Of a DNA stretch of 38,940 bases, positions 8,382 to 37,595 are shown one piece after another. The notes beneath the pieces were generated by a model. The model saw only the letters and a list, made by a program, of their open reading frames with translations. It ran no database searches and was not told the DNA's origin. Within the stretch, counting starts at the first letter, position 1. Each line of letters begins with the position of its first letter. This DNA comes from Ignavibacterium sp. (lineage in GTDB: Bacteria > Bacteroidota > Ignavibacteria > Ignavibacteriales > Ignavibacteriaceae), in assembly GCA_018059515.1 (NCBI GenBank), contig JAGOXU010000003.1, positions 1-38,940 of the forward strand, given 5' to 3'. Made by a program: the position numbers and the translations under genes.

Positions 8382-10394
8382 ATGACTGATACAAGACTTG
8401 ATATCGAACTACTTTCTATAAATACAATTCGTACTCTTGCTATTGATGCAGTGCAAAAAGCAAAATCCGGTCATCCGGGTATGCCGCTTGGTATGGCGCC
8501 AATTGCTTATGCGCTTTATTACAAAGCTATGAAACACAATCCTTCAAATCCTAAATGGTTAAACCGAGATCGATTTGTCCTTTCTGCCGGACACGGAAGT
8601 ATGCTTTTGTATTCTATTCTTCATCTTAGCGGTTACAAAGTTTCTATGGACGATCTTAAAAATTTTAGACAGTGGGGCAGCAAAACTCCCGGGCATCCGG
8701 AACTTGGACACACAGATGGAGTTGAGACTACAACCGGACCTTTGGGACAAGGTTTTGCAACTGCGATTGGAATGGCAATTGCGCGTGATTATTTAGCCGC
8801 ACTTTTTAATAAAGATGATAATAAAATTATTGATCACGGTATTTGGGGCATTTGCAGCGATGGCGATTTGATGGAAGGCATTTCTCACGAAGCGGCTTCT
8901 CTTGCGGGGCATTTGAAACTTAGTAAGCTCGTTTTCTTTTATGATGATAATAAAATTACAATCGATGGAACGACTGATATTTCTTATTCTGATGATGTAG
9001 CAAAAAGATTTGAAGCTTACGGCTGGCAGGTGCTTACAATTTTGAACGTGAACGATTCAAATCAAGTTGAGCGAATAATTAATTTGGCACGATCTACTAG
9101 TGAAAAACCAACTTTAATAATTACAAAAACAAACATTGGTTATGGCAGCCCGAATAAGCAAGACAAATCATCTGCGCATGGCTCGCCGCTTGGTGATGAA
9201 GAAGTAAAACTTACAAAAAGAAATCTCGGCATGCCCGAAGACAAAACTTTTTATGTACCCGAAGAAGTTTACTCGCATTTTAAAGGAATTGTAGAATGCG
9301 GACAGGAAGCAGAAGATATGTGGCAAAAAAAATTGGATGAGTATAAAAATAAATATCCAAAAGATTTTGCTTTGCTTGAATCTGTTTTTAAAGGCGAGTT
9401 TGATAACAACTGGTTAAATCATTTACCAAAGTTTGAAGAGTACAATGAAAAAATAGCAACACGCGTTGCTTCGGGTAAGGTGCTAAATGCTGCGGCGATT
9501 GATATTCCAACTCTCTTTGGCGGCTCAGCCGATCTTAATGAATCTAATATGACTGAAATAAAATCTTCAACATCTTTTTCTGCAGAAGATAGAAAAGGAA
9601 GAAACGTACATTTTGGAATTCGTGAGCATGCAATGGGCGCAGTGTTAAATGGAATGTCTGTTTACGGCGGCATTGTTCCATTTGGTGCTACGTTTTTAAT
9701 TTTTTCGGATTATATGCGTCCGGCAATAAGATTAGCTGCTCTGATGAAACAAAAAGTAATTTATGTTTTTACTCACGATAGTATTGGATTAGGCGAGGAT
9801 GGTCCAACACATCAGCCGATAGAACAAATAGCTTCGTTAAGAGCGATTCCAAATCTAACAGTAATTCGTCCTGCTGATGCAAATGAAACAGTTGAAGCTT
9901 GGAAGTTTGCGATAAATCATAAAGGCGGACCAGTTTCATTAATCTTAACAAGACAAAAACTTGCTGTCATTGATCCAAACAAATATGCGCAGGCAAGCGG
10001 ATTGCAAAAAGGCGCATACATAATTAAAGATTGTAAGCAAACGCCTGATTTACTTTTAATAGCAACCGGCTCAGAAGTTTCGTTATCAATTAAAGCAGCA
10101 GAAAAACTTGAAGCTGAAGGAAAAAATGTTAGAGTTATAAGTTTTCCGAGTTGGGAAATTTTTGAACAACAAGATGAGGATTACAAAAAACAAATTTTTC
10201 CATCAGAAATAAAAGCAAGACTATCTGTTGAGATGGCAGTAGCAATGGGCTGGCAAAAATATGTTGGGGATAATGGAGAAAGTTTAAGTATAGAAATCTT
10301 TGGTGCATCTGCGCCTGATACTATATTATATGAAAAATATGGTTTTACAGTTGATAATATTGTTGCAAGAGCAAAAAATATTTTGACTCGATAA
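8382..10394 (+). CDS. tkt: Transketolase
   Basis: 670-residue thiamine-diphosphate enzyme that moves two-carbon ketol units between sugar phosphates in the non-oxidative pentose phosphate pathway. N-terminal features are SGHPGMPLGMAPIAYALY (about 28-45), RDRFVLSAGHGS and TTGPLGQGFATAIGMA. The diphosphate-binding motif is CSDGDLMEGISHEA, with the closing Asn in DDNKITIDG. The pyrimidine-binding half has HFGIREHAMGAVLNGM and HDSIGLGEDGPTHQPIEQ, followed by RPADANET. Length is normal. The ATG lacks a strong Shine-Dalgarno, which is common in this phylum. It stands alone, divergent from the cas operon. Confidence 0.97.
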   Translation: MTDTRLDIELLSINTIRTLAIDAVQKAKSGHPGMPLGMAPIAYALYYKAMKHNPSNPKWLNRDRFVLSAGHGSMLLYSILHLSGYKVSMDDLKNFRQWGSKTPGHPELGHTDGVETTTGPLGQGFATAIGMAIARDYLAALFNKDDNKIIDHGIWGICSDGDLMEGISHEAASLAGHLKLSKLVFFYDDNKITIDGTTDISYSDDVAKRFEAYGWQVLTILNVNDSNQVERIINLARSTSEKPTLIITKTNIGYGSPNKQDKSSAHGSPLGDEEVKLTKRNLGMPEDKTFYVPEEVYSHFKGIVECGQEAEDMWQKKLDEYKNKYPKDFALLESVFKGEFDNNWLNHLPKFEEYNEKIATRVASGKVLNAAAIDIPTLFGGSADLNESNMTEIKSSTSFSAEDRKGRNVHFGIREHAMGAVLNGMSVYGGIVPFGATFLIFSDYMRPAIRLAALMKQKVIYVFTHDSIGLGEDGPTHQPIEQIASLRAIPNLTVIRPADANETVEAWKFAINHKGGPVSLILTRQKLAVIDPNKYAQASGLQKGAYIIKDCKQTPDLLLIATGSEVSLSIKAAEKLEAEGKNVRVISFPSWEIFEQQDEDYKKQIFPSEIKARLSVEMAVAMGWQKYVGDNGESLSIEIFGASAPDTILYEKYGFTVDNIVARAKNILTR

Positions 10395-10545
10395 AAATAA
10401 AACTAATGTTCGGTATAAATTTATTTCAGACTTTTATTTTTAATGAACTCTCATTTTATTTTAGCATTGCTAATTGAAAATTTGTTTTTTTCTATTGCAA
10501 GAATCAAAGAGGCTGTGTTAAAAAAAAGAGATGTGAATTTATAAA

Positions 10546-25500: not shown

Positions 25501-26043
25501 TTGTCTAAATACGTAGCACTACTAAAAGCAATTAATGTTGGGGGACATACAGTTAAAATGGATCATTTAAAAAATCTTTTTGAAAAAATAGAATTTGAAA
25601 ACGTTCAAACATTTATTGCCAGCGGAAATGTAATCTTTGATTCAAAATCAAAAAATGTTGATGCGATAAAAAAGAAAATTGAAACTGAGCTTGAAAAATT
25701 TCTAGGTTATAAAGTTCCAACATTTATTAGAACCACAGATGAGTTAAAAATTATTTCGGAATACAAACCATTTAAGAAATCCGATTTAGTTAACGAACAA
25801 AATTTTTTGTACATAGGTTTTCTTGATAATCAACCAGATCAAGCATCACAAAAAAAAGTTTTAGCCTTATCAGACAAAGCAAATGAATTTCAGTTTAACA
25901 ATAAAGAGTTATACTGGCTTTGCAGAAAAAATTTTAGTGATTCCGGTATAACAGGAAAAGCTTTGGAGAAAGCGTTGGGAATGGAAACAACTGTACGTAA
26001 TTCAACCACTATTAGAAAAATGGTTTTAAAGTATTGTGTTTAA
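25501..26043 (+). CDS. DUF1697-family protein
   Basis: 180-residue protein with the DUF1697 signature: KYVALLKAINVGGHTVKMDHLKNLF, VQTFIASGNVIFDSK and YKVPTFIRTTDEL. A C-terminal TTVRNSTTIRKM matches the conserved family tail. No biochemical function is established for the family. It starts with TTG, preceded by AAGGA. It begins next to the barrel pseudogene and ends next to a structured element at 26054-26142. It marks the left edge of the accessory gene region. Confidence 0.92.
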   Translation: MSKYVALLKAINVGGHTVKMDHLKNLFEKIEFENVQTFIASGNVIFDSKSKNVDAIKKKIETELEKFLGYKVPTFIRTTDELKIISEYKPFKKSDLVNEQNFLYIGFLDNQPDQASQKKVLALSDKANEFQFNNKELYWLCRKNFSDSGITGKALEKALGMETTVRNSTTIRKMVLKYCV

Positions 26044-26053
26044 AACACGATCG

Positions 26054-26142
26054 TAACATTTTGCAGCTTGAAGCAGGTGGCGATTTTTACCACCAATGTG
26101 TCTGCGGAGTACTGAACCGCCGCTTTTGTCAAACTGCTGTTA
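26054..26142. repeat. Structured intergenic element A (cassette-end-like)
   Basis: 89-base element with imperfect ends. TAACA (26054-26058) pairs with TGTTA (26138-26142). GCAG (26063-26066) pairs with CTGC (26134-26137), leaving a four-base bulge. In its centre GGTGG / CCACC (26076-26094) forms a hairpin with loop CGATTTTTA. On the minus strand it starts TAACAGCAGTTTG, and the TAA is the stop codon of the reductase gene. A related element lies at 31821-31928. Framing by AAC and GTT recalls integron attC sites, but the full attC consensus is not met. Confidence 0.6.
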
Positions 26143-26706
26143 TCTGTTCGTTGTTTTTTCGTTTATCGGTTTATAGTATAGTGTAATTGCACCACCACCA
26201 AAGGTTTTTGTCTTTATGAGTTTAAGAAAAGTCTTGTCGTTTATATTTTCAAATAATGGCAAACCGCCACCAGCAACAACAGGGTGAACACAAAGTTGGT
26301 ATTCATCAATCAAATTAAGTTTCATTAGCTGTATAATTAAACCCCGACTGCCAACTAAAATGTCTTTACCTGATTGTTGTTTGAGTTCTAAAACTTCTTC
26401 TTCAAGGTCGCGATTTGCCAACTTTGCACTTTTCCACCCTACGTTTTTAAGTGTGTGTGAAAAAACAATTTTGGGAATCTTGTCTATTACCACGGCAAAG
26501 TCATCCATTGATTTTTCACCTGAAGGATTTTCTACCAGAGTTTGCCAAAATTCCATAAGCTGATATGTTATCCTCCCATATAGAACGGTGCCTCCGCTGC
26601 TTAACAGGTCAGCGTAATGATAATGTATTTCTTCATCCGGAATTATTACTGTATGGTCGCAAAACCCGTCAAGTGTCATATTGATTACTGCAATTACTTT
26701 TCTCAT
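26140..26706 (-). CDS. Dihydrofolate-reductase-family protein (RibD C-terminal domain)
   Basis: 188-residue protein of the RibD_C/DHFR-like family (PF01872). It starts with RKVIAVINMTLDGFCDH, then TVLYGRITYQLMEFW, and near the C-terminus has DILVGSRGLIIQLMKLNLIDEYQL followed by HPVVAGGGLPLF. These are NADPH-site and fold signatures. The true substrate of such stand-alone proteins is usually unknown and they need not be folate enzymes. Its TAA stop is embedded in structured element A. It belongs to the run of unrelated minus-strand accessory genes. Confidence 0.92.
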   Translation of the reverse strand: MRKVIAVINMTLDGFCDHTVIIPDEEIHYHYADLLSSGGTVLYGRITYQLMEFWQTLVENPSGEKSMDDFAVVIDKIPKIVFSHTLKNVGWKSAKLANRDLEEEVLELKQQSGKDILVGSRGLIIQLMKLNLIDEYQLCVHPVVAGGGLPLFENINDKTFLKLIKTKTFGGGAITLYYKPINEKTTNR

Positions 26707-26742
26707 ATCTTATCCTTTTATTACTTTAGGGATGTTGTCTTA

Positions 26743-26863
26743 AAATGACGGCAACGGTTTCGGGTTTTTGAAACCTAACTGTTTGCCGGCACTTAAGTTT
26801 ATTATTTGCTCAAAAATTTCTATTCGCACTGTCCGTCCAATAACGTAATTCTCGTGTTAGCGG
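26743..26863. repeat. Two-tier hairpin and TAAC/GTTA motif upstream of the reductase gene
   Basis: A two-tier hairpin sits near 26743-26790: outer CGGCAA / TTGCCG, inner GGTTTC / GAAACC with loop GGGTTTTT, joined by an asymmetric bulge. Near 26841-26863 a shorter TAACG / CGTGTTA pair precedes the end of the VOC gene. This resembles the layout of the other spacers in the region. Confidence 0.45.
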
Positions 26864-26886
26864 TTCGTTTTAATTTTTCATTTGTA

Positions 26887-27330
26887 TCATAGTTGTTCTG
26901 CCAACCCAATTAGAAGTCCTTCCGTTCCACGAATGTAGCAAAGGCGATACAAGTTTTCGTACTGAACCACTTCGCCTACAAGTTTAGCACCTTGTTTAAT
27001 GAGCCTTGCAACAAGTTCGTCAAGGTCTTCAACAGTGAACATAATGCGTAGATAACCAAGAGAATTAACAGGCGCAGTTCGATGGTCTGAAATTGTTTGT
27101 GGGTTCAGAAATCTTGAAATTTCAAGTCGGCTGTGACCATCGGGTGTAACCATCATAGCGATTTCTACCTGTTGATAATCAAGTCCGGTAACTCGACCCG
27201 ACCATTCACCTTCAATTGTAGCTCGTCCTTCAAGTGTCAGACCTATTTCCGTGAAAAATGCGATGGCATCATCAATAGAATCTACAACGATGCCCATATT
27301 GTGCATTTGAAGTAATTTACTTTTTTTCAT
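26887..27330 (-). CDS. VOC-superfamily (glyoxalase/bleomycin-resistance-like) protein
   Basis: 147-residue vicinal-oxygen-chelate fold protein. It begins LLQMHNMGIVVDSIDDAIAFF, with the first metal-ligand His, followed by EIGLTLEGR. The second half has HSRLEISRFLNP and SLGYLRIMFTVEDLDELVARL, ending with RGTEGLLIGLAEQL, which carries the final ligand Glu. The reaction is not known; relatives include glyoxalases, dioxygenases and drug-binding proteins. It begins 20 bases after the GNAT-Arr gene and is probably co-transcribed. Confidence 0.92.
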   Translation of the reverse strand: MKKSKLLQMHNMGIVVDSIDDAIAFFTEIGLTLEGRATIEGEWSGRVTGLDYQQVEIAMMVTPDGHSRLEISRFLNPQTISDHRTAPVNSLGYLRIMFTVEDLDELVARLIKQGAKLVGEVVQYENLYRLCYIRGTEGLLIGLAEQL

Positions 27331-27350
27331 ATTTAATTCTTCGTCTTAGT

Positions 27351-28247
27351 TTAGTCATTCAGGGAATTAATTCCCTGTTCTTTAAGTTTTTCTAAAGCAT
27401 CTTTCATTGCTTTAACTTGCTCGGTTGAGTGTCCTTGCCAAATCGTAACTTCTCCAACAACTTTAAAAGGCTTGGTTGAACGATAAGATTTGGTTGGATT
27501 GCCTGGAAATTTTTTATCTGTCAAGTCTGGGTCGTCCTCGATTTCTCCTATTGGTTCTACCAAATAAATTCTTTCCCGTCCTTCGCCAAATGCAAGTTCT
27601 GCAACCCAAATAGCAGCATCTAAAGTTGCTGTCAAAAAAATATATTTTGCATTTTTTCTTTGTCCATAGTTTGAGTTGTTGCCAACTACAATTAAGTCGC
27701 CAACTTTTAGGTCGGCTTTTGTACCGTGAAAAAAAGTTTGTACAAAAGGTGTCGCACCTTGTCCGCTTGGTTTATGATCGTTTAAGTTTTTTTTCATAAC
27801 CACTATGTTTTTGCCACCTAAAGTAAGTCGTTCTAATTGTTGCCACCCAAGCCGCTTATATAAATTTTCCGCTGTATGTGTAAATAGATAAATTTCTTTC
27901 AGTCCAAGGTCTTTTGAATAGTCTTGAATGTGGTTGCAGATTAATGTTCCCAATCCTTTTCCCCGAAGGTCAGGTTTAGTATAGACTAAGGCTAACCAGT
28001 TTTTGTAAATATTAAGTCGTGGTTCTTTATCGAGTAGTTCAACGTGGTTGTAAAGTCCGCCAGTTGCAATGGGTTTGTTGTCAACCGTCATTAAAACTTG
28101 AAACTCAAAATTGGCAGCCGAAAGATTTTTAGTTTTTTCTATTGTGGTCTGAGCGGGGATGTTCCACTCACTTAAATACCAGTCTGCAATCAGTTCTATT
28201 TTTTCGTTTTCGTCAGGTTTGATTATATGATATTTAATGTCTGTCAT
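27351..28247 (-). CDS. GNAT acetyltransferase fused to rifampin ADP-ribosyltransferase (Arr)
   Basis: 298-residue two-domain protein. Residues 1-155 form a GNAT N-acetyltransferase with the acetyl-CoA loop VYTKPDLRGKGLGTLICNHI and the later YLFTHTAENLYKRLGWQ. From about residue 165 comes an Arr domain: TFFHGTKADLKVGDLI, NSNYGQRKNAKYIFLTATLD, IYLVEPIGEIEDDPDLTDKK and FPGNPTKSYRS, close to classic Arr enzymes that ADP-ribosylate rifampin. Arr is usually a stand-alone protein of about 140 residues. The junction is continuous with no frameshift. Rifamycin inactivation is expected from the family but unproven here. Confidence 0.93.
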   Translation of the reverse strand: MTDIKYHIIKPDENEKIELIADWYLSEWNIPAQTTIEKTKNLSAANFEFQVLMTVDNKPIATGGLYNHVELLDKEPRLNIYKNWLALVYTKPDLRGKGLGTLICNHIQDYSKDLGLKEIYLFTHTAENLYKRLGWQQLERLTLGGKNIVVMKKNLNDHKPSGQGATPFVQTFFHGTKADLKVGDLIVVGNNSNYGQRKNAKYIFLTATLDAAIWVAELAFGEGRERIYLVEPIGEIEDDPDLTDKKFPGNPTKSYRSTKPFKVVGEVTIWQGHSTEQVKAMKDALEKLKEQGINSLND

Positions 28248-28299
28248 ATTTCAATTATCTTTTTGGGTGTTATTCCTACAATGACCGCTGACAGTCCAG

Positions 28300-28414
28300 T
28301 ATAACCGTCATTTACGGTTTAAAAATTACTAAACTTTTTGCTGTGTGGAAAGATTATGCTAGTGCCTGGTGGGTGTGAATTCCGATAAGGAATTCCATCG
28401 TAATTGCGGTTATA
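28300..28414. repeat. Long nested inverted repeat in the methyltransferase-GNAT spacer
   Basis: TATAACCG (28300-28307) pairs perfectly with CGGTTATA (28407-28414) across 115 bases. Nested inside are AACCGT / ACGGTT (28303-28319, an alternative pairing of the left arm) and GAATTCC / GGAATTC with loop GATAA (28377-28395). It sits just beyond the methyltransferase stop, on the minus strand, and upstream of the GNAT-Arr gene. It is another member of the structured spacers of this accessory region. Confidence 0.6.
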
Positions 28415-28441
28415 AATTGTTATGGGCATTTTTTTGTTTAG

Positions 28442-29056
28442 TCAATTTTCTGTCTTTGTTCTTTTACATTTTATGAGATAAAAAGGATAGACATCAATTA
28501 CATCTAATATTTCAAATAGTCCGACTTCACCAAATTCTTCTTGTATTGTCTCCCTGTCGTAAAAGAACATTTTTAAACCCCCAAATATTTCAAATCTGTC
28601 CTTGTCAATGCAAGTCCCTTGACCATAAATTTGTGCTTCTTTTGTAACAGTTGCAAAAACCATAAACCCGTTTTCTGATAGTTGGTTATAGCAGTCTCGG
28701 ATTAGTTTACTTCTTTCCTTTTTGTCCAAAAAGTGAATTAAGGCGTAACAATATATTCCGTCATAAAGATTTTTGTCAAATGGCATTTCAGTTACAGAAC
28801 CGTGATAAATAATCAAGTTGTTTCCAAAATGTTTTTTGGCTAAATCAATTGCAGTTTGGGAAATTTCAATTCCTGTCACTGTCATTCCATTGTTCCTGAA
28901 AATTTGAGCATTTCGTCCATAACCAATTCCAGGAATAAGTATATTTTTCACGTTGTGTTCAATAAAAAAATCATTTGCCAATACTGTGGATTTTGCTGGC
29001 TCAAAACCCCACATTTCCTGTTTGTCTTTAAATGCTTGTTCCCAAAATTCTGTCAT
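28442..29056 (-). CDS. Class I SAM-dependent methyltransferase (TehB/TPMT-like)
   Basis: 204-residue Rossmann-fold methyltransferase. An N-terminal FWEQAFKDKQEMWGFEPA resembles TehB/thiopurine-type enzymes. The SAM-binding motif I is NILIPGIGYGRNAQIF, with VTGIEISQTAIDLAKKHF as the acidic post-I loop. MPFDKNLYDGIYCYALIHFL is motif II. A small-molecule substrate is likely, but which one cannot be told. A gene remnant and 350 bases of spacer follow upstream on this strand. Confidence 0.9.
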   Translation of the reverse strand: MTEFWEQAFKDKQEMWGFEPAKSTVLANDFFIEHNVKNILIPGIGYGRNAQIFRNNGMTVTGIEISQTAIDLAKKHFGNNLIIYHGSVTEMPFDKNLYDGIYCYALIHFLDKKERSKLIRDCYNQLSENGFMVFATVTKEAQIYGQGTCIDKDRFEIFGGLKMFFYDRETIQEEFGEVGLFEILDVIDVYPFYLIKCKRTKTEN

Positions 29057-29409
29057 TGTTGGTTGGTCTCTTAATTTGTTGAGATTACATTAAAATTGCA
29101 GCTAACTGTTATGTGTATGAAAGGTTGCGTGTTTGTGTGCGAGGATTTTCCGTGACAACTTCTAACAAATTAGTTAACTTACTTTCAATATTTTCCAATT
29201 TACATATACGACTTTGTTTAAATAGAATTTATATCTGAATCAAAATACATCAATTAAACGCAATAATCGGAAAGAACAAAAGAAATATAAAAAAAAGTAT
29301 TGCTCTTTACCTTACTTTTTTTCGGGACGATACAAGACGCTTTGGATTAAAACAATAATGAATAAAATGGCGATTAAGTATTGTTAGGATTATCTTTTAA
29401 AAATTATTT
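29057..29409. other. Spacer with TAACAG motif and a gene remnant
   Basis: 353 bases without an intact gene. On the minus strand it contains TAACAGTTAGCTGC near 29100-29111, the same motif that starts elements A and B, and a short open frame ending right at it (see 29109-29228). The right part is AT-rich and should hold the promoter of the channel gene. Confidence 0.45.
29109..29228 (-). pseudogene. Possible C-terminal remnant of a lost accessory gene
   Basis: A 39-codon open frame reading KQSRICKLENIESKLTNLL, then VTENPRTQTRNLSYT and a stop, with a normal coding-like composition. Just upstream another frame reads FDSDINSI and stops, as if one base had been lost or gained. The stop codon TAA forms the start of a TAACAG motif, as at the end of the reductase gene. 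No start codon or family was identified. It may be a broken gene end, but chance cannot be excluded. Confidence 0.3.
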
Positions 29410-30003
29410 ATGATAAAAAATCGTTTAGAGGCTTTTAGTGATGGAGTGCTTGCTATCATCATTACAATTATGGTTTTGGGATTACAAATTCCCCAAGGCA
29501 CTGAACTTGTAACCCTTAAACCACTTCTTCCAATTTTGCTAAGCTACATTTTAAGTTTTATTTATATTGGTATATATTGGAACAATCATCATCATTTATT
29601 GCATACTGTTAATAGTGTTAAAGGGGGAATACTTTGGGCAAACCTGCACTTACTTTTTTGGTTATCACTTATTCCCTTTACAACCGGCTGGATGGGAGAA
29701 AACCATTTTGCACCAATTCCAACAGCGCTATATGGATTTGTTTTGTTGATGGCAGCAGTCGCTTATTTTATTCTTCAAAGAGCAATTGTAAAAACCCAGG
29801 GTAAAAATTCTCTGTTGGCTAAAGCGATAGGTCGTGATTTAAAAGGAAAAGCTTCACCAATACTTTATTTGATTGCAATTGGCTCTGTCTTTTTTCATCC
29901 TAAAATTGCACAGGGCATTTATCTTTTAGTTGCGTTAATCTGGTTGATACCAGATAAGCGTATTGAAAAAGTTTTTTTTGATGGTGATGAAAAGATTATC
30001 TAA
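29410..30003 (+). CDS. TMEM175-family (DUF1211) potassium-channel-like protein
   Basis: 197-residue membrane protein with about six hydrophobic segments. The N-terminus carries the family signature RLEAFSDGVLAIIITIMVLGL, the pore-lining first helix of bacterial TMEM175 channels. IGIYWNNHHHLLHTVNSVKGGILWANLHLLFW follows as the His-rich loop and third helix. Bacterial relatives form leak K+ channels as tetramers. It is the only plus-strand gene between 26.1 and 34.4 kb. The ATG has no strong Shine-Dalgarno. Confidence 0.93.
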   Translation: MIKNRLEAFSDGVLAIIITIMVLGLQIPQGTELVTLKPLLPILLSYILSFIYIGIYWNNHHHLLHTVNSVKGGILWANLHLLFWLSLIPFTTGWMGENHFAPIPTALYGFVLLMAAVAYFILQRAIVKTQGKNSLLAKAIGRDLKGKASPILYLIAIGSVFFHPKIAQGIYLLVALIWLIPDKRIEKVFFDGDEKII

Positions 30004-30142
30004 AAGAGATGATAGTTGATAAATTTTGCGTAAGGTGACTTAGTAAATAATAAATTAAAATAAATATTTTAGTTTACTGCTTGCGCTATCGTTCAATTTA
30101 TGCATAGATATCTTATTCGGTAATGTCTGTGTTCCTTGTCTA

Positions 30143-31759
30143 TTAGCTCTCCTTTTTCCCTACAAAAGTTATTGATGGTATTGCGTAATAATTTTCTTTT
30201 TTCCAAAAGCGCAGTAAAAAGTCAATATCTTTTAAATACATTTTTCCAACTCCTTCTGAAAAAAATGGTAAATCTTTTTTGCAGTTATCAATACAAAACA
30301 GAGCCAATTCTGTTGACATTTCATCTGAGAGCAACAAAGACATAATATCATCGTCACTCTTTTCAGCATTATAAAAAGGATTGTTGGGTAAGGGGAAAGC
30401 ACTGTTTACACCAAGTGCAATCTCAACCCCGGTTTTTGGATTATAAAATACCAATCCTGTATCTGATACGTTGGATAAATCTTTCAATTCTTTTTCTTTA
30501 CTGAAAAAACCATCTTTGCGTGCTCTTAGTTTTGCTTCTTCTATTTCTTTGGCAGATAAATTTAACGAGTTATTAAAAAAATCCATATAACCCCTATAAA
30601 AATCATTTATTTTTTCAGATGACAAAAACGCTATTTGCGAACCATTATTAAAATCTTTAAATGCTTTCAATTGCTTGTTTAGATGATCTTCAATTTCTTT
30701 TTTGTGATGGTCTAAAAAATTGACTGCCATTCTGCTTTCTAATGAATTTTTTTCATCTAAAATTAAATCCGAATGGAATGGCTGCTGAAAATACACACCC
30801 GAAAACCACCATTCATCTTTCCATTTAACAATTCCCATAAATATTATTGTATCCACTGTTGATAATGAAGCTGACTGGTCAAAAGATTTTTTTGTCAGTT
30901 CAAACTTTTTACCTGATGCGATATGTTCAATAAAAATATTATAATCGTCTTGTCCTTTATAAAGAAAGAAACCTCTTATTCTTTGTGTTAAACTAAAAAA
31001 GCTTTTACTAAGTAAATGATCATTGCCCAAAATTTCAGCAGCCCATTCTTTACCCTTTAGACTAAGTAATCGAGTGTGAATATTATGCAGAGTGCTATCT
31101 CTATTCTCGTTTAAAAACACCATTATATTATCATCACTTTTTCTGTCCTCTAAGGTTTCAATATCCAGCACTTTTAATTTTAGTAAGGTATCGGGATAAA
31201 ACAGATATGTATTAAACAAAATTGTGTTGATCAGATTTCGTGCAACGTAAAAATCTTTTTCATCTTCATCTATTTGATAAAACGATTTAAGATATTCATT
31301 CTTTGGAGCATAAACCCAGGCTTTAACAAAAACGTCTGATACCTTTTCTGACAGCTCAACAATAAAATCATTAAACGGAGCAATAAAATTTTCTTCTTGC
31401 ACGGTATTGATAAAATACCAAATCAAAAAGCGTACATCCTGTTGGTTTATTTCTTCTTCGGTATATTCATCTAAGATGTAAAACGGAAGTTGCTTTTTGT
31501 ACAATCGTTTGTGCATTTTTACAAAGGTGTTCCAAATGTTAGTTCCGGATACTAAGTCTTCAAGGTAAGAAGTTAGAAAACACGATAAATGGTCAATGTT
31601 TTTTTTGCCCAAATACTTTTGTAATACTAATGACTGTTTATTACTTGTAATAGCTCTCTTAACATCGTTACAGATTCTGAGATAATAACTATCTGTTTTT
31701 GTTTGCTGCACATATGGTTTAATATCTAACCAATCTTTTATATAAATCCTTTTGTCCAT
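30143..31759 (-). CDS. DUF3843-like protein of unknown function
   Basis: 538-residue protein without signal peptide or membrane helix. The N-terminus (IYIKDWLDIKPYVQQTKTDSYYLRICNDV) matches what I know of the Bacteroidota family DUF3843. The rest is mixed helix and strand with a central WWFSGVYFQQPF block and a C-terminal LVFYNPKTGVEIALGVNSAFPLPNNPF. No catalytic motif is recognised. It lies 139 bases after the channel gene (convergent) and downstream of element B, next to the PHP-ATPase pair. It could belong to that module or be a separate cassette. Confidence 0.65.
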   Translation of the reverse strand: MDKRIYIKDWLDIKPYVQQTKTDSYYLRICNDVKRAITSNKQSLVLQKYLGKKNIDHLSCFLTSYLEDLVSGTNIWNTFVKMHKRLYKKQLPFYILDEYTEEEINQQDVRFLIWYFINTVQEENFIAPFNDFIVELSEKVSDVFVKAWVYAPKNEYLKSFYQIDEDEKDFYVARNLINTILFNTYLFYPDTLLKLKVLDIETLEDRKSDDNIMVFLNENRDSTLHNIHTRLLSLKGKEWAAEILGNDHLLSKSFFSLTQRIRGFFLYKGQDDYNIFIEHIASGKKFELTKKSFDQSASLSTVDTIIFMGIVKWKDEWWFSGVYFQQPFHSDLILDEKNSLESRMAVNFLDHHKKEIEDHLNKQLKAFKDFNNGSQIAFLSSEKINDFYRGYMDFFNNSLNLSAKEIEEAKLRARKDGFFSKEKELKDLSNVSDTGLVFYNPKTGVEIALGVNSAFPLPNNPFYNAEKSDDDIMSLLLSDEMSTELALFCIDNCKKDLPFFSEGVGKMYLKDIDFLLRFWKKENYYAIPSITFVGKKES

Positions 31760-31820
31760 TTAAATTGCTTTATAGTTGATTTGATTCTTAAGCCTGACAT
31801 TAATAGTTAATATGTCTTTA

Positions 31821-31928
31821 AGTGCTCGGGATTTTTAGCACTACAGTTCAATAGAATCATTGCTGTTCAGTCTTGCTCAAATGTTCAATTAAAACTCGTC
31901 CGTCCGCCATTGAGCCAAACGCCTGTTA
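31821..31928. repeat. Structured intergenic element B (related to element A)
   Basis: On the minus strand it starts TAACAGGCGTTTGGC followed by CAATGGCGG. This aligns with element A (TAACAGCAGTTTG, then GCGGCGG). At its other end AGTGCT / AGCACT (31821-31842) forms a 6-bp hairpin whose loop holds GGGATTTTT, matching the hairpin with GATTTTT in its loop in element A. It lies just beyond the stop of the 98-residue partner gene. Confidence 0.55.
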
Positions 31929-31938
31929 GTATCCGTAT

Positions 31939-32235
31939 TTATTCTTCTTTGTTTAATAGTCCGTTATCTTTAAGTTCAGTATATGTGCTTTTTAGTTCAG
32001 CGTTAAGTTGTGTTATGTATTCCTTACAAATATGGAAATACAAATCATCAGCACCGTCAGTCAAATTAAAATCTATTTCACCAGTCTTTAAATGTGACAA
32101 TAATTTGTTAAAAACTGATTTTACCTCATTAGGGTTGTCTTCCGTTAGGACAATTTTTAATTCTTCTGTTCCAAGTGCAAGTTTTAAAATTGCACTATTG
32201 TCTTTTCTTTCAATTGTTGCACTATGAGTTGCCAT
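31939..32235 (-). CDS. Small partner protein of the PHP-ATPase, 98 residues
   Basis: I do not recognise this 98-residue soluble protein. It has a beta-rich first half (HSATIERKDNSAILKLALGT, ELKIVLTEDNPNEV) and a helical second half (DDLYFHICKEYITQLNAELK). An ATG at 32235 is chosen because AGAGGA lies just upstream; a longer frame from 32271 would extend further into the ATPase gene. The start overlaps the 3' end of the PHP-ATPase gene by 14 bases, which implies translational coupling and a shared function, for example as antitoxin, adaptor or specificity factor (inference). Confidence 0.75.
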   Translation of the reverse strand: MATHSATIERKDNSAILKLALGTEELKIVLTEDNPNEVKSVFNKLLSHLKTGEIDFNLTDGADDLYFHICKEYITQLNAELKSTYTELKDNGLLNKEE

Positions 32236-34366
32236 ATATTTTTCCTCTTTCTCCGAAAGCAGACTTTCCACCTTCTAAAGTTTTCATACTAATTAATTTC
32301 CAATCTAGATCAGCTTTTGTACCGTTGATGCACTTTAAATTATTTGAAAATGGATTTCCGATAAATGTATAGCAACTTTGATTGACGTTATGAAGCCTGT
32401 ATATTGAATTATATGGCAACGTTCTAACTGCAATATTTGCATCGTGAGTTGCTATAATTACTCTTTTCCCACTTTTTGCTTTTTCTTTTATCAAGGGAAC
32501 GATTACTTCGCTGATATAGTCATTTCCTAAACTTTTTTCGGGTTCATCTATTAGATAAATATCTTTATCCTTTTTCAATTCATTGTGAAGCAAAACCATT
32601 GAAGATTCTCCATTTGAAGGAGTGTAAACATTTCCGTTTAGTGTAAAATGTCTATTGAAAAGTAACAAATCATTAATTGATGTTATAGTATCTCCACTTT
32701 CAATTTTTTTAAGCTCATCAATTTTTTCAAATAATGAATTTGCGTAAATATGATTTGAAATTATTTCTATTTGAGAAGCTACGCTTTTTTGTGGAACTTT
32801 TGTTTTGCTTTGGATATGCTTGTATTCAGAATCCGAAATTGTTCCATTTTGAATTATCAAATTAGTTTGACAAAATAATTTCCCTTTGTCTCCTAAGTCT
32901 CCGACTTCTTCAATATTGGGTGTGATTGTTTTTGCTATGTTTTCCTGAACCTTTTTTACTGCTTTTTCTATCGCAATTCTATTACTTGCATATTCATAAA
33001 AACCAGTTTTTGTAGGCTTTACTGCTTGTCCTGTCTTTCTGGAGATTTCATCAACAAAAACTTGAATTAATTTATTAAAGAAGTTTATCTTTTTATAGTC
33101 AATAAAACGATTTTCAGATTCAGAATTTAACTTTTCTAAAATTTTATTTACAACGCTATCTAATTCGGTTAATAGTTCATCACCAATAATTTCTTTTAGT
33201 TTAGGATTTGCGCTAATATTACTTTTAAATTCAGAGATTTGTTTCAAGTAGCTTTTAACTTCGTCAAATGTTCTTTTGGGTGAGCTTTCGTCAAGAAGCG
33301 TGAATAGATTCACTTTAATAGTCTTAGCAATTTTATTTTTAGATTCGTCCGAATAATAACGATGATAAGCAGATAAACTTGTTACTCCTTTTTCAGTTGC
33401 ATTTCTTATTGAAGCTAACTCGGCAGAACAATGATCAATTCCTAATTCTTCAATGTCAATAGTGAATTGATTTCCTTTTAAGTCAAAAACATCTTCAATT
33501 TTATTTTTATTAGATTCGTAAACTTCTGTCTTGAATCCTTTACCATTGTAGTAGGTTGAAAGTGCTTTTAAAATATCGGTTTTGCCAGTTCCTTTCGAAC
33601 CAAAAAGAATATTGATGTCATTGTAGATCTCAAGATTTATTAGTTCCGCAATACCAAAAGGTGTTATTTGAATGGATTCCTTTGTCTTTTTGTCAAGAAT
33701 TGTTTTGATGGTTGTGTCATCTTTGTCCAAAAGCAAACAAAACTGTTCAAAGCTCTCAACTGGTAATCTCAATTCTGGTAAACCTTTAGATACATTTAAA
33801 TAATCGTCCCAGTTCTGAACATCAGAACCGTGAATTGAGTTGTGCCCGTGCTTTATGTAGATACCTGCTGAAATGGAGTTTGATACTTCTTTTAAAACTC
33901 GTTTGGGATTTGAAACCAAACTAACAAGTTTTTCAACTTCTTTGTCTGTTAAGTTTGGTTTCTTGGAATGATAATGTGCAATGAAAATTGGATCAAAGTC
34001 ATAGAACTTGTTTACAACATCCTCAATTTTAATCGTAAAAGAGTCTGCGGAAGTAGATCCGATGACTTCATTTACTTTTATGCTAAACGCTTCTGCATTT
34101 TTTGGGTTTATGATTATAATTAAATGTGATCTTCGTCCGTCCTCAAGAATATCAAATTCGATACCTGGCCAAATTTGACATGTTCCATCAACACTGTTTT
34201 TAAATTGAATGTATTGTTCGTGGTCAAAGTGATTGTGGTTCGTTATTGCTAGAATTTTTACATCTGTCTTGTTTATGATGTCAGTAAATTTTTTAACATC
34301 AACATTGCGATTTTCTGAATCGCCCTGCTTCACTTTTTTCGTATGTGTATGAATATCTATTTTCAT
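32222..34366 (-). CDS. PHP-domain / ABC-type ATPase fusion (TrlF-like)
   Basis: 714-residue fusion of an N-terminal PHP phosphoesterase-type domain and an SMC/ABC-type ATPase. PHP metal-ligand motifs are all visible: HTHT (H6, H8), NHNH (H44, H46), GIE (E70), AHYH (about 130-133) and HGSD (about 179-182). Walker A is GSKGTGKT (about 256-263). A long helical insert follows. The late half has TPSNGESSM as the signature-like loop, IYLIDEPEKSL as Walker B and IIATHDANIAV as the H-loop. This matches what NCBI names TrlF-family AAA-like ATPases; such nuclease-ATPase fusions are common in phage defence, but a role here is inferred. It is coupled to the 98-residue gene. Confidence 0.88.
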   Translation of the reverse strand: MKIDIHTHTKKVKQGDSENRNVDVKKFTDIINKTDVKILAITNHNHFDHEQYIQFKNSVDGTCQIWPGIEFDILEDGRRSHLIIIINPKNAEAFSIKVNEVIGSTSADSFTIKIEDVVNKFYDFDPIFIAHYHSKKPNLTDKEVEKLVSLVSNPKRVLKEVSNSISAGIYIKHGHNSIHGSDVQNWDDYLNVSKGLPELRLPVESFEQFCLLLDKDDTTIKTILDKKTKESIQITPFGIAELINLEIYNDINILFGSKGTGKTDILKALSTYYNGKGFKTEVYESNKNKIEDVFDLKGNQFTIDIEELGIDHCSAELASIRNATEKGVTSLSAYHRYYSDESKNKIAKTIKVNLFTLLDESSPKRTFDEVKSYLKQISEFKSNISANPKLKEIIGDELLTELDSVVNKILEKLNSESENRFIDYKKINFFNKLIQVFVDEISRKTGQAVKPTKTGFYEYASNRIAIEKAVKKVQENIAKTITPNIEEVGDLGDKGKLFCQTNLIIQNGTISDSEYKHIQSKTKVPQKSVASQIEIISNHIYANSLFEKIDELKKIESGDTITSINDLLLFNRHFTLNGNVYTPSNGESSMVLLHNELKKDKDIYLIDEPEKSLGNDYISEVIVPLIKEKAKSGKRVIIATHDANIAVRTLPYNSIYRLHNVNQSCYTFIGNPFSNNLKCINGTKADLDWKLISMKTLEGGKSAFGERGKIYGNS

Positions 34367-34666
34367 TTCGTTCGTCTGTGCTGTGTCGTTCTAATATGCC
34401 AATAACTCTTTTATAGTTTTCACAAAATCAGACTTATGCAACCATTATTAGCCGTATAGTTCTCATAAAAGAGAAATTTTATTTTTTAAAATATAAGTAA
34501 TTTATTTTTAAATCATTCCTTAGGAAATTTTCGATAACAATTTGTGATTACTTCTCATAAAATAATTATCTTGCCTCAATCAATTTCATTATTACGAATG
34601 AATCTGTTTAGTGAAGTTTAAAGCCAAATTTATAAATTTCGAAAAAACATAACACAAAGGAAATCA
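34367..34666. other. Divergent intergenic region
   Basis: 300 AT-rich bases between the divergent PHP-ATPase and racemase-like genes. They should contain both promoters, but I could not place either with confidence. No hairpin or ORF of note was seen. Confidence 0.4.
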
Positions 34667-36184
34667 ATGAAATATCTAAAAGCGGCATTAGTACCTGCCT
34701 TATTCCTTATTTTTCCTTCATGTAATTCTGAACAAGCGCCACCCCAAAAAAATCTTGAACAGACTATCCTATCAGACATATCAAATTTTTATTACGTTGA
34801 TGTTATAAATTATCCTGTAAAAAATAAAAGTCTGCCTATCGGAATTTTTGATTCCGGTACCGGGGGGCTTACAGTAATGGATGCAATAGTAAACTATGAT
34901 GGATTTAATAATCAAAATAAGGCAGGCGATCCTGATGGAATTTTAGACTTTGAAAAAGAATATTTTATTTATCTCGCTGATCAAGCAAACATGCCTTACG
35001 GAAATTATCCTTCTCTAAATAAAACTGATGTTTTAAAGGAACATATTCTTAAAGATGTTCAATTTCTACTCAGCAACAAATATTATCAATCTTCTAACGA
35101 CAAAGAATTTAAGACAGATAAGTTGCCGATTAAAGCAATTGTGATTGCCTGTAATACCGCAACAGCATACGGAATGGATGACATTGAGGTGTTTTTGAAA
35201 AAAGCAAAGCTGGATATTAAAGTAATTGGAGTTATTAACGCCGGTGTTAAAGGTGCTTTTGAGAATGTTTCCAAAGATGAAGATTGCAGCATTGCAGTTA
35301 TGGCAACCGAAGGAACAGTATTATCTAATGGCTATGTAAATGCTATTAACAAATTTAAATCTGAGTTTGGTTACAAGGGAAAAATTCAAACATATCAGCA
35401 GCCCGGTATTGGCTTAGCCGGAGCCGTTGATGGAGTTATAGATTACATCGATACAAAGACTAATGAAATTAGAAAAGAATATAAGGGACCTTCGTTAACA
35501 TCAATGGAAGCAAAAATTGATATAAGTATTTTGAATCGATATAATTTTGATTGGGATAAAAATAAAACTTTATTCACTGGCACAAAAGAAAAACCCACAG
35601 AGATTCAACTTAACTCGATTGAGAACTACATTTATTATAATGTAGTTTCGTTACTTGAACAGATTAAAAACTCAAAGTCAACAAATCCGCTTAAAACAAT
35701 TATACTTGGCTGCACTCACTATCCCTTCTACAAAAATATCTTTGCTAAAAAACTGAATGAGCTTTATGACTTAAAAGGAAATGGCAAATATATTTATAGA
35801 GATTTTATGTATAAAGAAATCACCTTAATTGATCCTGCAATTAACACAGCAAAAGAATTATATAATCACCTAAACAACAGCAATCTGTTCGGCGAAAACA
35901 ATATTCACAACAGCGAGTTTTATATTTCTGTTCCTAATACTTTTTGTAAGGATGTAAAAATAGATTCGCTAAACAACTTTACGTATGAATACAAATACGG
36001 TAGAACTGCAGGTGTTATTCAGGAGTACGTTAAACAAGTTCCATTCAACAAATCAAACCTGCATCCGGATGTAATTATGATGCTAAAAGAAAAAACACCA
36101 TTAGTTTATAAATTAATTACAGACTTTAACCAAACAAACAGTAAAGCTGAGTTTATAAGAATTAATAACTTGGTAATACTTTAA
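34667..36184 (+). CDS. Exported glutamate/aspartate-racemase-like protein
   Basis: 505-residue protein with an N-terminal signal (AALVPALFLIFPSC) whose Cys 19 suggests a lipoprotein, though Phe and Pro in the lipobox are atypical. The body has the complete MurI active site: GIFDSGTGGLTVMDAI (D62, S63), DQANMPYG, ACNTATAYG (C162) and ILGCTHYPF (C349, with T350-H351). It is almost twice the normal length of MurI (about 270), with insertions after the first Cys region and a C-terminal extension. MurI is normally cytoplasmic and feeds D-Glu to peptidoglycan, so an exported version is odd. The next gene starts 10 bases later. Confidence 0.85.
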   Translation: MKYLKAALVPALFLIFPSCNSEQAPPQKNLEQTILSDISNFYYVDVINYPVKNKSLPIGIFDSGTGGLTVMDAIVNYDGFNNQNKAGDPDGILDFEKEYFIYLADQANMPYGNYPSLNKTDVLKEHILKDVQFLLSNKYYQSSNDKEFKTDKLPIKAIVIACNTATAYGMDDIEVFLKKAKLDIKVIGVINAGVKGAFENVSKDEDCSIAVMATEGTVLSNGYVNAINKFKSEFGYKGKIQTYQQPGIGLAGAVDGVIDYIDTKTNEIRKEYKGPSLTSMEAKIDISILNRYNFDWDKNKTLFTGTKEKPTEIQLNSIENYIYYNVVSLLEQIKNSKSTNPLKTIILGCTHYPFYKNIFAKKLNELYDLKGNGKYIYRDFMYKEITLIDPAINTAKELYNHLNNSNLFGENNIHNSEFYISVPNTFCKDVKIDSLNNFTYEYKYGRTAGVIQEYVKQVPFNKSNLHPDVIMMLKEKTPLVYKLITDFNQTNSKAEFIRINNLVIL

Positions 36185-36194
36185 GGAGCATACT

Positions 36195-37595
36195 TTGCAA
36201 ATAGAATTTATCGGCGGCGCAAGGACTGTTACCGGTTCGCAGCATTTACTACACATCAATGGTAAAAAAATACTTCTCGAGTGCGGATTGTTTCAAGGCA
36301 GAAGAAGCGAAACTTACGAGAAGAATAAAAACTTTAAATTTAATCCCGCAGATATTGATGTGATGATTCTTTCACACGCACACATAGACCACAGCGGCAA
36401 TATTCCAAATCTTGTTAGCAAAGGTTTTAACGGATTAATTTATGCAACATCGGCAACTGTAGATCTCTGCCAGATTATGCTGCGCGATTCTGCACATCTA
36501 CAAGAAAAAGATATTGAGTGGGTTAATAAAAAACGTAAAAAGAAAAACTTAGAACAAATAGAATCACTTTACACATTGGAAGATGTTGAACAGGCAATGA
36601 GTCAATTTGTTGGTGTTCAATATAACAGAATTATTGAGTTGTTTCCGGGTATTAAATTTAGTTTTAGAGATGCCGGACACATTCTTGGTTCTGCGGGAGT
36701 TTTATTAGAAATTGAAGAATCCAACAATAAAAAAATTCGTTTAGGATTTTCAGGTGATATTGGCAGACCGGATGCCCCTGTAATTAATTCTCCGGATATC
36801 TTGCGAGATCTTGACGCATTAATCATGGAGTCAACTTATGGAAACCGTTTACATTCGCCCGCTGAAGATGTTGAAGAGGATTTTTCATCAACAATAAATG
36901 AAGTTATTAATGAAGGAGGAAAAATTATCATTCCAGCTTTTGCAGTTGGAAGAACTCAAACAATCGTTTATGTGCTACACAAACTTTTTGATCAAAACAG
37001 AATTCCTGAAATTCCGATTTATGTTGATTCACCAATGGCTGTTGATGCAACGGCAGTATTCCGTTCTCATCCTGAATGTTTAGATAGAGAAACCGGTCGT
37101 ATCTTCTTAGAGGAAGGAACTGATCCCTTTGGTTTTGGCAGACTGAAGTACATTAAGAAAACTGAGGAATCAAAAAAGTTGAATGATAAACATGGACCGA
37201 TGATAATTATCTCTGCATCAGGAATGGCGGAAGGCGGAAGAATCCTGCATCATCTTGCAAACAATATTGGCAATTCTAAAAATTTAATTTTATTTGTTGG
37301 TTATGCGGCGGAGCACACTCTTGCAAGAAGAATTATGGATGGAGATGAAAAGGTAAACATTTTTGGAGAAGAATACGTTGTTAACGCTAAAATCAAAAAA
37401 ATGGATTACTTTTCCGGTCATGCAGATCAAAGGGAATTATTGGATTACCTGCGTCTAAACGATATAAATAAACTAAAAAATATATTTTTAGTTCACGGCG
37501 AAGAAGATATGGCGCTTCCGTTTAGAAAAATTTTATTACAAAAAGGCTTCAAAAACGTGCAATTTCCTGATTCGGGAGAAATAATAAATATTTAA
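36195..37595 (+). CDS. Beta-CASP metallo-beta-lactamase RNase-like protein
   Basis: 466-residue protein of the MBL-fold RNA-processing family (CPSF73/Ysh1-like). Metal motifs are SHAHIDHSGNIP (motif 2), AGHILGSAGVLL (motif 3), and FSGDIGRPDAP (motif 4). The beta-CASP segment includes MESTYGNR and AFAVGRTQTIVY. ISASGMAEGGRILHHL and FSGHADQRELLDYL form the C-terminal motifs B and C. Such proteins act as endo- or exoribonucleases; the target is unknown. It starts with TTG, with AAGGAG upstream. It is in an apparent operon with the racemase-like gene. Confidence 0.93.
   Translation: MQIEFIGGARTVTGSQHLLHINGKKILLECGLFQGRRSETYEKNKNFKFNPADIDVMILSHAHIDHSGNIPNLVSKGFNGLIYATSATVDLCQIMLRDSAHLQEKDIEWVNKKRKKKNLEQIESLYTLEDVEQAMSQFVGVQYNRIIELFPGIKFSFRDAGHILGSAGVLLEIEESNNKKIRLGFSGDIGRPDAPVINSPDILRDLDALIMESTYGNRLHSPAEDVEEDFSSTINEVINEGGKIIIPAFAVGRTQTIVYVLHKLFDQNRIPEIPIYVDSPMAVDATAVFRSHPECLDRETGRIFLEEGTDPFGFGRLKYIKKTEESKKLNDKHGPMIIISASGMAEGGRILHHLANNIGNSKNLILFVGYAAEHTLARRIMDGDEKVNIFGEEYVVNAKIKKMDYFSGHADQRELLDYLRLNDINKLKNIFLVHGEEDMALPFRKILLQKGFKNVQFPDSGEIINI

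Follow-up and report, generated by a model that had tools for sequence, protein, structure and literature searches.

A PHP-ABC ATPase gene and its small obligate neighbour as a candidate mobile anti-phage or anti-plasmid system

Introduction

The closest tested relative, by design, of the gene pair studied here is Ppl of E. coli, which carries a PHP domain and an NTPase in one protein and is described as an NTP-inhibited single-stranded DNA 3′-5′ exonuclease that is switched on by nucleotide depletion and 3′-OH ends (PMC12904381, a review), with NTPs restraining it in both the PHP and the NTPase domains (PMC12904381). PDC-M49 is a phage-defence candidate of PADLOC-DB 2.0 that consists of an A and a B subunit, and our literature search returned no paper naming it. 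TrlF proteins, at about 890–940 aa, also have an N-terminal PHP domain and an ABC head. In the systems of AriA (from PARIS), OLD and retron-septu PtuA an ABC-type head likewise serves phage defence, and the nuclease there is Toprim or HNH, not PHP.

Here we analyse two overlapping genes, A and B, in a 38,940-nt stretch of Ignavibacterium sp. (contig JAGOXU010000003.1 of assembly GCA_018059515.1), which we call the window. A first-pass annotation of this DNA had read the pair as a candidate defence system, a reading that we find plausible.

Results

The source genome is a Bacteroidota assembly, 85.6% complete, whose 358 contigs add up to 3.4 Mb, and it has a single copy of A. Both of the genes described in the first-pass annotation, one for a 714-residue ATPase and one for a 98-residue small protein, were found as open reading frames (ORFs) on the minus strand (Table 1), and the 14 bases that it had described as shared are common to both, with the ATG of B sitting inside the end of A. 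The B reading frame is longer than its product, and the internal ATG that gives 98 aa is backed by comparison, in that most relatives keep this ATG together with an overlap of 14 or 11 bases.

Table 1. Features of the gene pair, of the insert that carries it and of its flanks
Feature	Position	Strand	Remarks
Gene A	32222-34366	minus	714 aa, ATG start; ORF call
Gene B	31939-32235	minus	98 aa; internal ATG at 32235
B reading frame	31939-32271	minus	full ORF
A/B overlap	32222-32235	minus	common to both ORFs
A, PHP domain	residues 1-225		AlphaFold model and fold matches
A, ABC head	residue 228 to C-terminus		helical arm inserted at about 361-477
Accessory insert, ~8.6 kb	26044-34628		carries A and B
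Insert cargo			RibD_C, glyoxalase, GNAT-Arr fusion, methyltransferase, TMEM175, DUF3843, B, A
GNAT-Arr fusion gene	27351-28247	minus	GNAT acetyltransferase fused to rifampin ADP-ribosyltransferase (Arr)
DUF1697 gene	25501-26043	plus	left flank of congeners' empty site, outside system
Glutamate-racemase-like gene	34667-36184	plus	right flank of congeners' empty site, outside system
Beta-CASP gene	36195-37595	plus	metallo-beta-lactamase RNase-like protein

A scan of the genome collection with A as the query returned 80 loci. A full-length A is present at 74 distinct loci, which come from about ten phyla and are 19–86% identical, and every one of them has an overlapping or abutting B of about 93–120 aa, while the same rule finds such an ORF at only 6 of the 431 other genes of these loci. 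The pairing is beyond chance, and B is an obligate neighbour of A in every intact copy examined; conservation of the small gene beside the ATPase, which the first-pass annotation had offered as a check on its reading, was thus borne out. In a midpoint-rooted tree that has long branches and includes several metagenome-assembled genomes (MAGs), the loci fall into two clades about 7.6 substitutions per site apart. The window pair belongs to clade I (64 loci), where nearly all A/B overlaps are 14 or 11 bases and one locus has a 2-base gap, and the true PDC-M49 pairs, such as that of S. capitis (L007), belong to clade II (10 loci), where the overlaps are 20–47 bases. Clade I extends over Bacteroidota, Pseudomonadota, Planctomycetota, Verrucomicrobiota, Actinomycetota, Myxococcota, Nitrospinota, Bacillota and Atribacterota. 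A small overlapping or abutting ORF also follows A at the plasmid loci of Enterococcus, S. epidermidis, Rhizobium and Phaeobacter. The relatives in the culturable Flavobacterium terrigena and F. profundi are 75–77% identical.

The two genes also evolve together. Distances between A proteins and between B proteins are correlated (r = 0.94, 65 pairs), and the dN/dS of B, about 0.03–0.13, resembles that of A and indicates purifying selection. Among 395 sampled genomes of the phylum only three carry A; exactly two of the 395 have a clade I B, both with a clade I A, the third A carrier has a clade II B, and an orphan B was seen in none. In the sampled genomes of the window's order, A was not found outside the window genome. 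At one clade I locus (L059) A is split over frames and B is still present. In a separate observation, an Enterococcus faecium plasmid copy (L005:8001-10140) has A broken into several ORFs and B (10130-10438) open, and two contigs of one Alteromonadaceae MAG (L054 and L055) carry near-identical pairs, either an assembly duplicate or two copies.

Obligate pairing, gene overlap and plasmid carriage are also what would be expected if the pair were a maintenance module of the toxin-antitoxin type, in which a toxic A is silenced by B and the mobile DNA is stabilised, with phage effects secondary if there are any; AriA of PARIS, a toxin-holding ATPase, is moreover among the best solved-structure matches of A. 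An antitoxin gene usually precedes its toxin gene. Here the small gene comes after the large one, and this order, together with the lack of an orphan B among the 395 genomes, makes us consider such a module quite unlikely.

To describe protein A we combined sequence and predicted structure. Pfam gave AAA/ABC matches that were all sub-threshold, and the AlphaFold model has a pLDDT of 86 and a pTM of 0.55, with domain placement uncertain. Residues 1-225 of the model have a PHP barrel fold, as judged by VIA matches at Z 13–15 to EndoQ (Z 14.5, 3.6 Å, 210 residues), the PHP domain of RNase AM (Z 13.9, 3.2 Å, 181 residues), TM0559 (Z 13.5, 3.2 Å, 186 residues) and the PHP domain of Pol III (Z 13.3, 3.4 Å, 194 residues). 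Residues 228-710 match ABC ATPases (VIA, Z 13–15), and the top Foldseek ranks for A are the ATPase heads of cohesin, retron IA, Rad50, RecN and AriA. Across 76 sequences the Walker A lysine, the DEPE Walker B, the S-x-G-E signature and the TH switch show no or almost no variation, and A has the Walker A, signature, Walker B, D-loop and H-loop of an ABC ATPase.

The PHP consensus has nine ligand positions, H,H,D/H,H,E,H,C/H,D/N,H (PMC3666897). By motif order, the first eight in A are H6, H8, D16, H44, E70, H81, H131 and D182. Positions 1, 2, 4, 5, 7 and 8 are invariant in 76/76 sequences, position 6 (H81) is kept in 73, and every clade I sequence has D16 at position 3, an assignment made by spacing only. 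Position 9 is Gln184 in A; in clade I it is His in 31/66 and Gln in 30/66 sequences, and in clade II it is Arg or Lys. The first-pass annotation had credited A with full metal-binding and nucleotide-binding motifs, which holds for the nucleotide-binding part and is slightly overstated for the metal ligands, eight of the nine being assignable and the ninth being Gln. Judged from its sequence, A is likely to have PHP catalysis.

Protein B is less easily placed. Its AlphaFold model has a beta-beta-beta-alpha-beta-alpha order (pLDDT 87). As the first-pass annotation had said in calling the small protein unrecognised, searches of Pfam, NCBIfam and PADLOC gave B no family match; PHROGs gave nothing significant (a marginal match had an E of 0.048), and Foldseek with the model gave no match at E<=0.001. 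VIA-align reached a Z of at most 5.0, with actin-like and ribosomal uL18/uS11-type proteins, matches that would fit a partial RNase H-like arrangement and are too weak to be used for assigning a function. A profile search against solved structures was also set aside, its best E being 0.03, which is not credible. In clade I, residues F42, N43, Y73, Q76, N78 and E80 of B are invariant, and its sequences contain no nuclease-like motif and no candidate catalytic residues. Because no such motif and no convincing known fold relative was found, B is more likely an adaptor or regulator than an enzyme. Clade I and clade II B proteins showed no homology by hhalign (probability 0.9% over 14 columns), and their predicted strand/helix orders are alike by eye.

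These data also bear on whether A could be a non-catalytic sensor, its inactive PHP domain acting as a ligand-binding platform and B or a host factor acting as the effector. The variation at PHP position 9, which is Gln, Arg or Lys in many members, would suit this explanation, as would the E. coli Pol III PHP domain, which is inactive after ligand loss (PMC3666897). However, the invariance of six PHP positions and the near-invariance of position 6 are unlike a decayed site, and B offers no candidate catalytic residues of its own, so we regard a sensor as very improbable.

We compared the pair with PDC-M49, Ppl, TrlF and the AriA group. The best PADLOC match of A is PDC-M49A (PDLC04680, 1.9e-30, with the PHP part matching best), a second PDC-M49A model (PDLC04678) matches at 4.3e-13 over residues 2-713, and a Photobacterium relative of A matches PDC-M49A at 1.8e-36 over residues 2-711. 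The match of the window A is weak against that of a true member (1e-210): the S. capitis plasmid pair scores 1.7e-210 for PDC-M49A and 1e-22 for PDC-M49B. No PDC-M49B match was found for the window B (E<=1) or for the B of three other clade I loci, L004, L005 and L006 (E<=10). PDC-M49 has two overlapping, adjacent genes in the same order as the pair; its A is likewise a PHP-ABC ATPase, with ~675 aa and homology along the whole protein, and its B, of about 100 aa, has a similar predicted strand/helix order. The window clade differs in lying ~7.6 substitutions per site away and in a B that does not match PDC-M49B. Since A matches and B does not, the pair is, on these sequence comparisons, not PDC-M49 itself.

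Unlike the single-gene Ppl, whose PADLOC model has a length of 894, A is part of a two-gene unit, with B present in 74/74 loci, and the PADLOC Ppl model does not match the window A at E<=1. A TrlF-annotated protein (L089) has its best PADLOC assignment to the same model, at 2.9e-31, and the Ppl/TrlF-type protein that we looked at lacks a small partner gene. TrlF (NF045780) is the best NCBIfam match of A, at 57 bits where the cut-off is 350. The first-pass annotation's term 'TrlF-like' is apt as a distant relation, which extends from the N-terminal PHP domain and the ABC head to a shared C-terminal LEG(G/A)xxAFxxRxxxYG motif, but not as family membership: A is shorter than TrlF proteins, the one examined has no B, and the score of A is far under the cut-off. 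Among solved structures AriA gives the best sequence match to A, and the partner proteins of AriA, OLD and PtuA are unrelated to B. Because A best matches PDC-M49A, B matches no PDC-M49B, Pfam or NCBIfam model and A falls far under the TrlF cut-off, we call the pair a divergent sister clade of PDC-M49 that would work like Ppl, with B as regulator or adaptor.

The pair is also mobile. The 'accessory region' of the first-pass annotation corresponds to a stretch of ~8.6 kb missing from three congeners (G041, G042 and G044), in which the racemase-like gene lies within about 120 bases after the DUF1697 gene; no target-site duplication is evident at the insert ends. In A, only 3% of synonymous sites separate a pair on a Photobacterium plasmid from one on a Vibrio chromosome. 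Pairs of different Bacteroidota orders differ at 15% and have a flanking methyltransferase cassette in common. Judging by these synonymous sites, the pair has recently moved between genera, by plasmid-chromosome and cross-order transfer. Searching INPHARED phages for the pair gave no match, and IMG/VR gave one putatively viral contig, whose A/B pair is identical to that of a Bacteroidales MAG (L008 and L025). The surroundings of the pair resemble a defence island, in which a helicase and a GIY-YIG-like gene lie upstream of it, and DUF4365-like and PD-(D/E)XK-like ones follow it (names by eye).

Within the window's own insert there is no recognised defence gene, and its other genes look like small-molecule resistance and metabolism (Pfam). 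They do not recur beside the pair in relatives, save for Arr and RibD_C-like genes in a single genome (L021), where a stand-alone Arr with 74% identity to the latter half of the window GNAT-Arr protein lies next to a RibD_C-like gene upstream of A/B, so that parts of the insert cargo recur together. The DUF3843-like gene, which had been suggested as an extra member, was rejected as a third component, being absent beside other pairs and present in one congener without the ATPase. Neighbour clustering likewise gave no recurrent third gene, no family occurring in more than 6 loci; the largest clusters were ABC transporters, integrases, SusC/D-type proteins, an HTH and C5-methyltransferase cassette, and type I restriction-modification (RM). 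To the right of the insert, the racemase-like protein seems by eye to carry a lipoprotein signal, its domain is enlarged, at about 500 aa, and its gene adjoins the beta-CASP gene in congeners as well. The beta-CASP protein scores 422 bits for NCBIfam type VII Cas14 (cut-off 800) and 315 bits for aCPSF1 (cut-off 580); it is probably an ordinary beta-CASP RNase, because both scores are below cut-off and the protein is conserved in congeners.

Genes near the pairs of relatives include BsuBI/PstI-type RM, RM of types I, II, IIG and III, SIR2-HerA, PglZ and an OLD-like ATPase, and AbiH adjoins one clade II member. By a crude measure, two sets of about 95 neighbours matched 205 and 257 PADLOC models against 89 for 96 random congener ORFs, a set that includes a chance type I RM/PrrC locus. 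As to the defence-gene enrichment that the first-pass annotation had named as a check, RM and other defence genes often lie near relatives, and since the random control also matched one RM locus, this neighbourhood is only suggestive.

Distribution and context also weigh on the possibility that the pair is an accessory unit of host DNA or RNA repair or surveillance, in which A trims damaged ends and B is its loader, with no immunity involved. Such a role would fit the fold matches of A to EndoQ, RNase AM and the RecN and Rad50 heads, but the rarity of A (3/395), its presence on plasmids, the empty sites and the recent intergenus transfer are unlike housekeeping repair, and the pairs of relatives adjoin RM systems. 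We therefore consider repair unlikely.

Discussion

By relation and context, the pair is probably a mobile defence system of two genes that acts against phages or plasmids. We favour this role because A is related to PDC-M49A and conserves PHP ligands 1-8 and all ABC motifs, because its predicted folds match nucleic-acid-processing PHP enzymes and SMC/Rad50/AriA/retron ATPases, and because B is obligate and co-evolving and the pair sits in an accessory insert, is transferred and has RM and other defence neighbours in relatives. Counted against it are an insert that lacks a recognised defence gene, a Gln at PHP ligand 9, and a B that matches neither PDC-M49B nor any known regulator.

The established part of our model is the gene pair, its motifs, predicted folds, conservation and mobility. 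In the model, A would be an ATP-gated nuclease whose ABC head dimerises around ATP and DNA, as in Rad50, RecN and the OLD/AriA group, and whose N-terminal PHP domain, with metals bound, would hydrolyse phosphodiesters at DNA or RNA ends. On invasion, in the form of altered nucleotide pools, free ends or some other phage trigger, the ATPase would change state and set the nuclease free. B would be a non-enzymatic stoichiometric subunit, translated through its overlap with A, that either restrains A or directs it to its target. Nuclease activity, ATP gating, the trigger, the role of B and phage protection are what we infer from the comparisons above. More tentatively, the window clade could be a distinct, undescribed immune type, a PHP-ABC nuclease dependent on a new ~98-aa B family, independently or very anciently paired, that runs parallel to PDC-M49 and Ppl in about nine phyla.

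The family to which the pair belongs offers conserved residues and dozens of homologues to work with, and its small partner is conserved to the same degree as the nuclease-ATPase. Surveys of defence genes probably under-count the system, because current PADLOC models miss B and match the A of this clade weakly. Ppl provides the precedent of a PHP-ATPase that acts as an immune nuclease under the control of nucleotide pools, and in a sister lineage that always carries a second subunit, the contribution of that subunit, be it silencing, DNA-end targeting or trigger recognition, becomes addressable.
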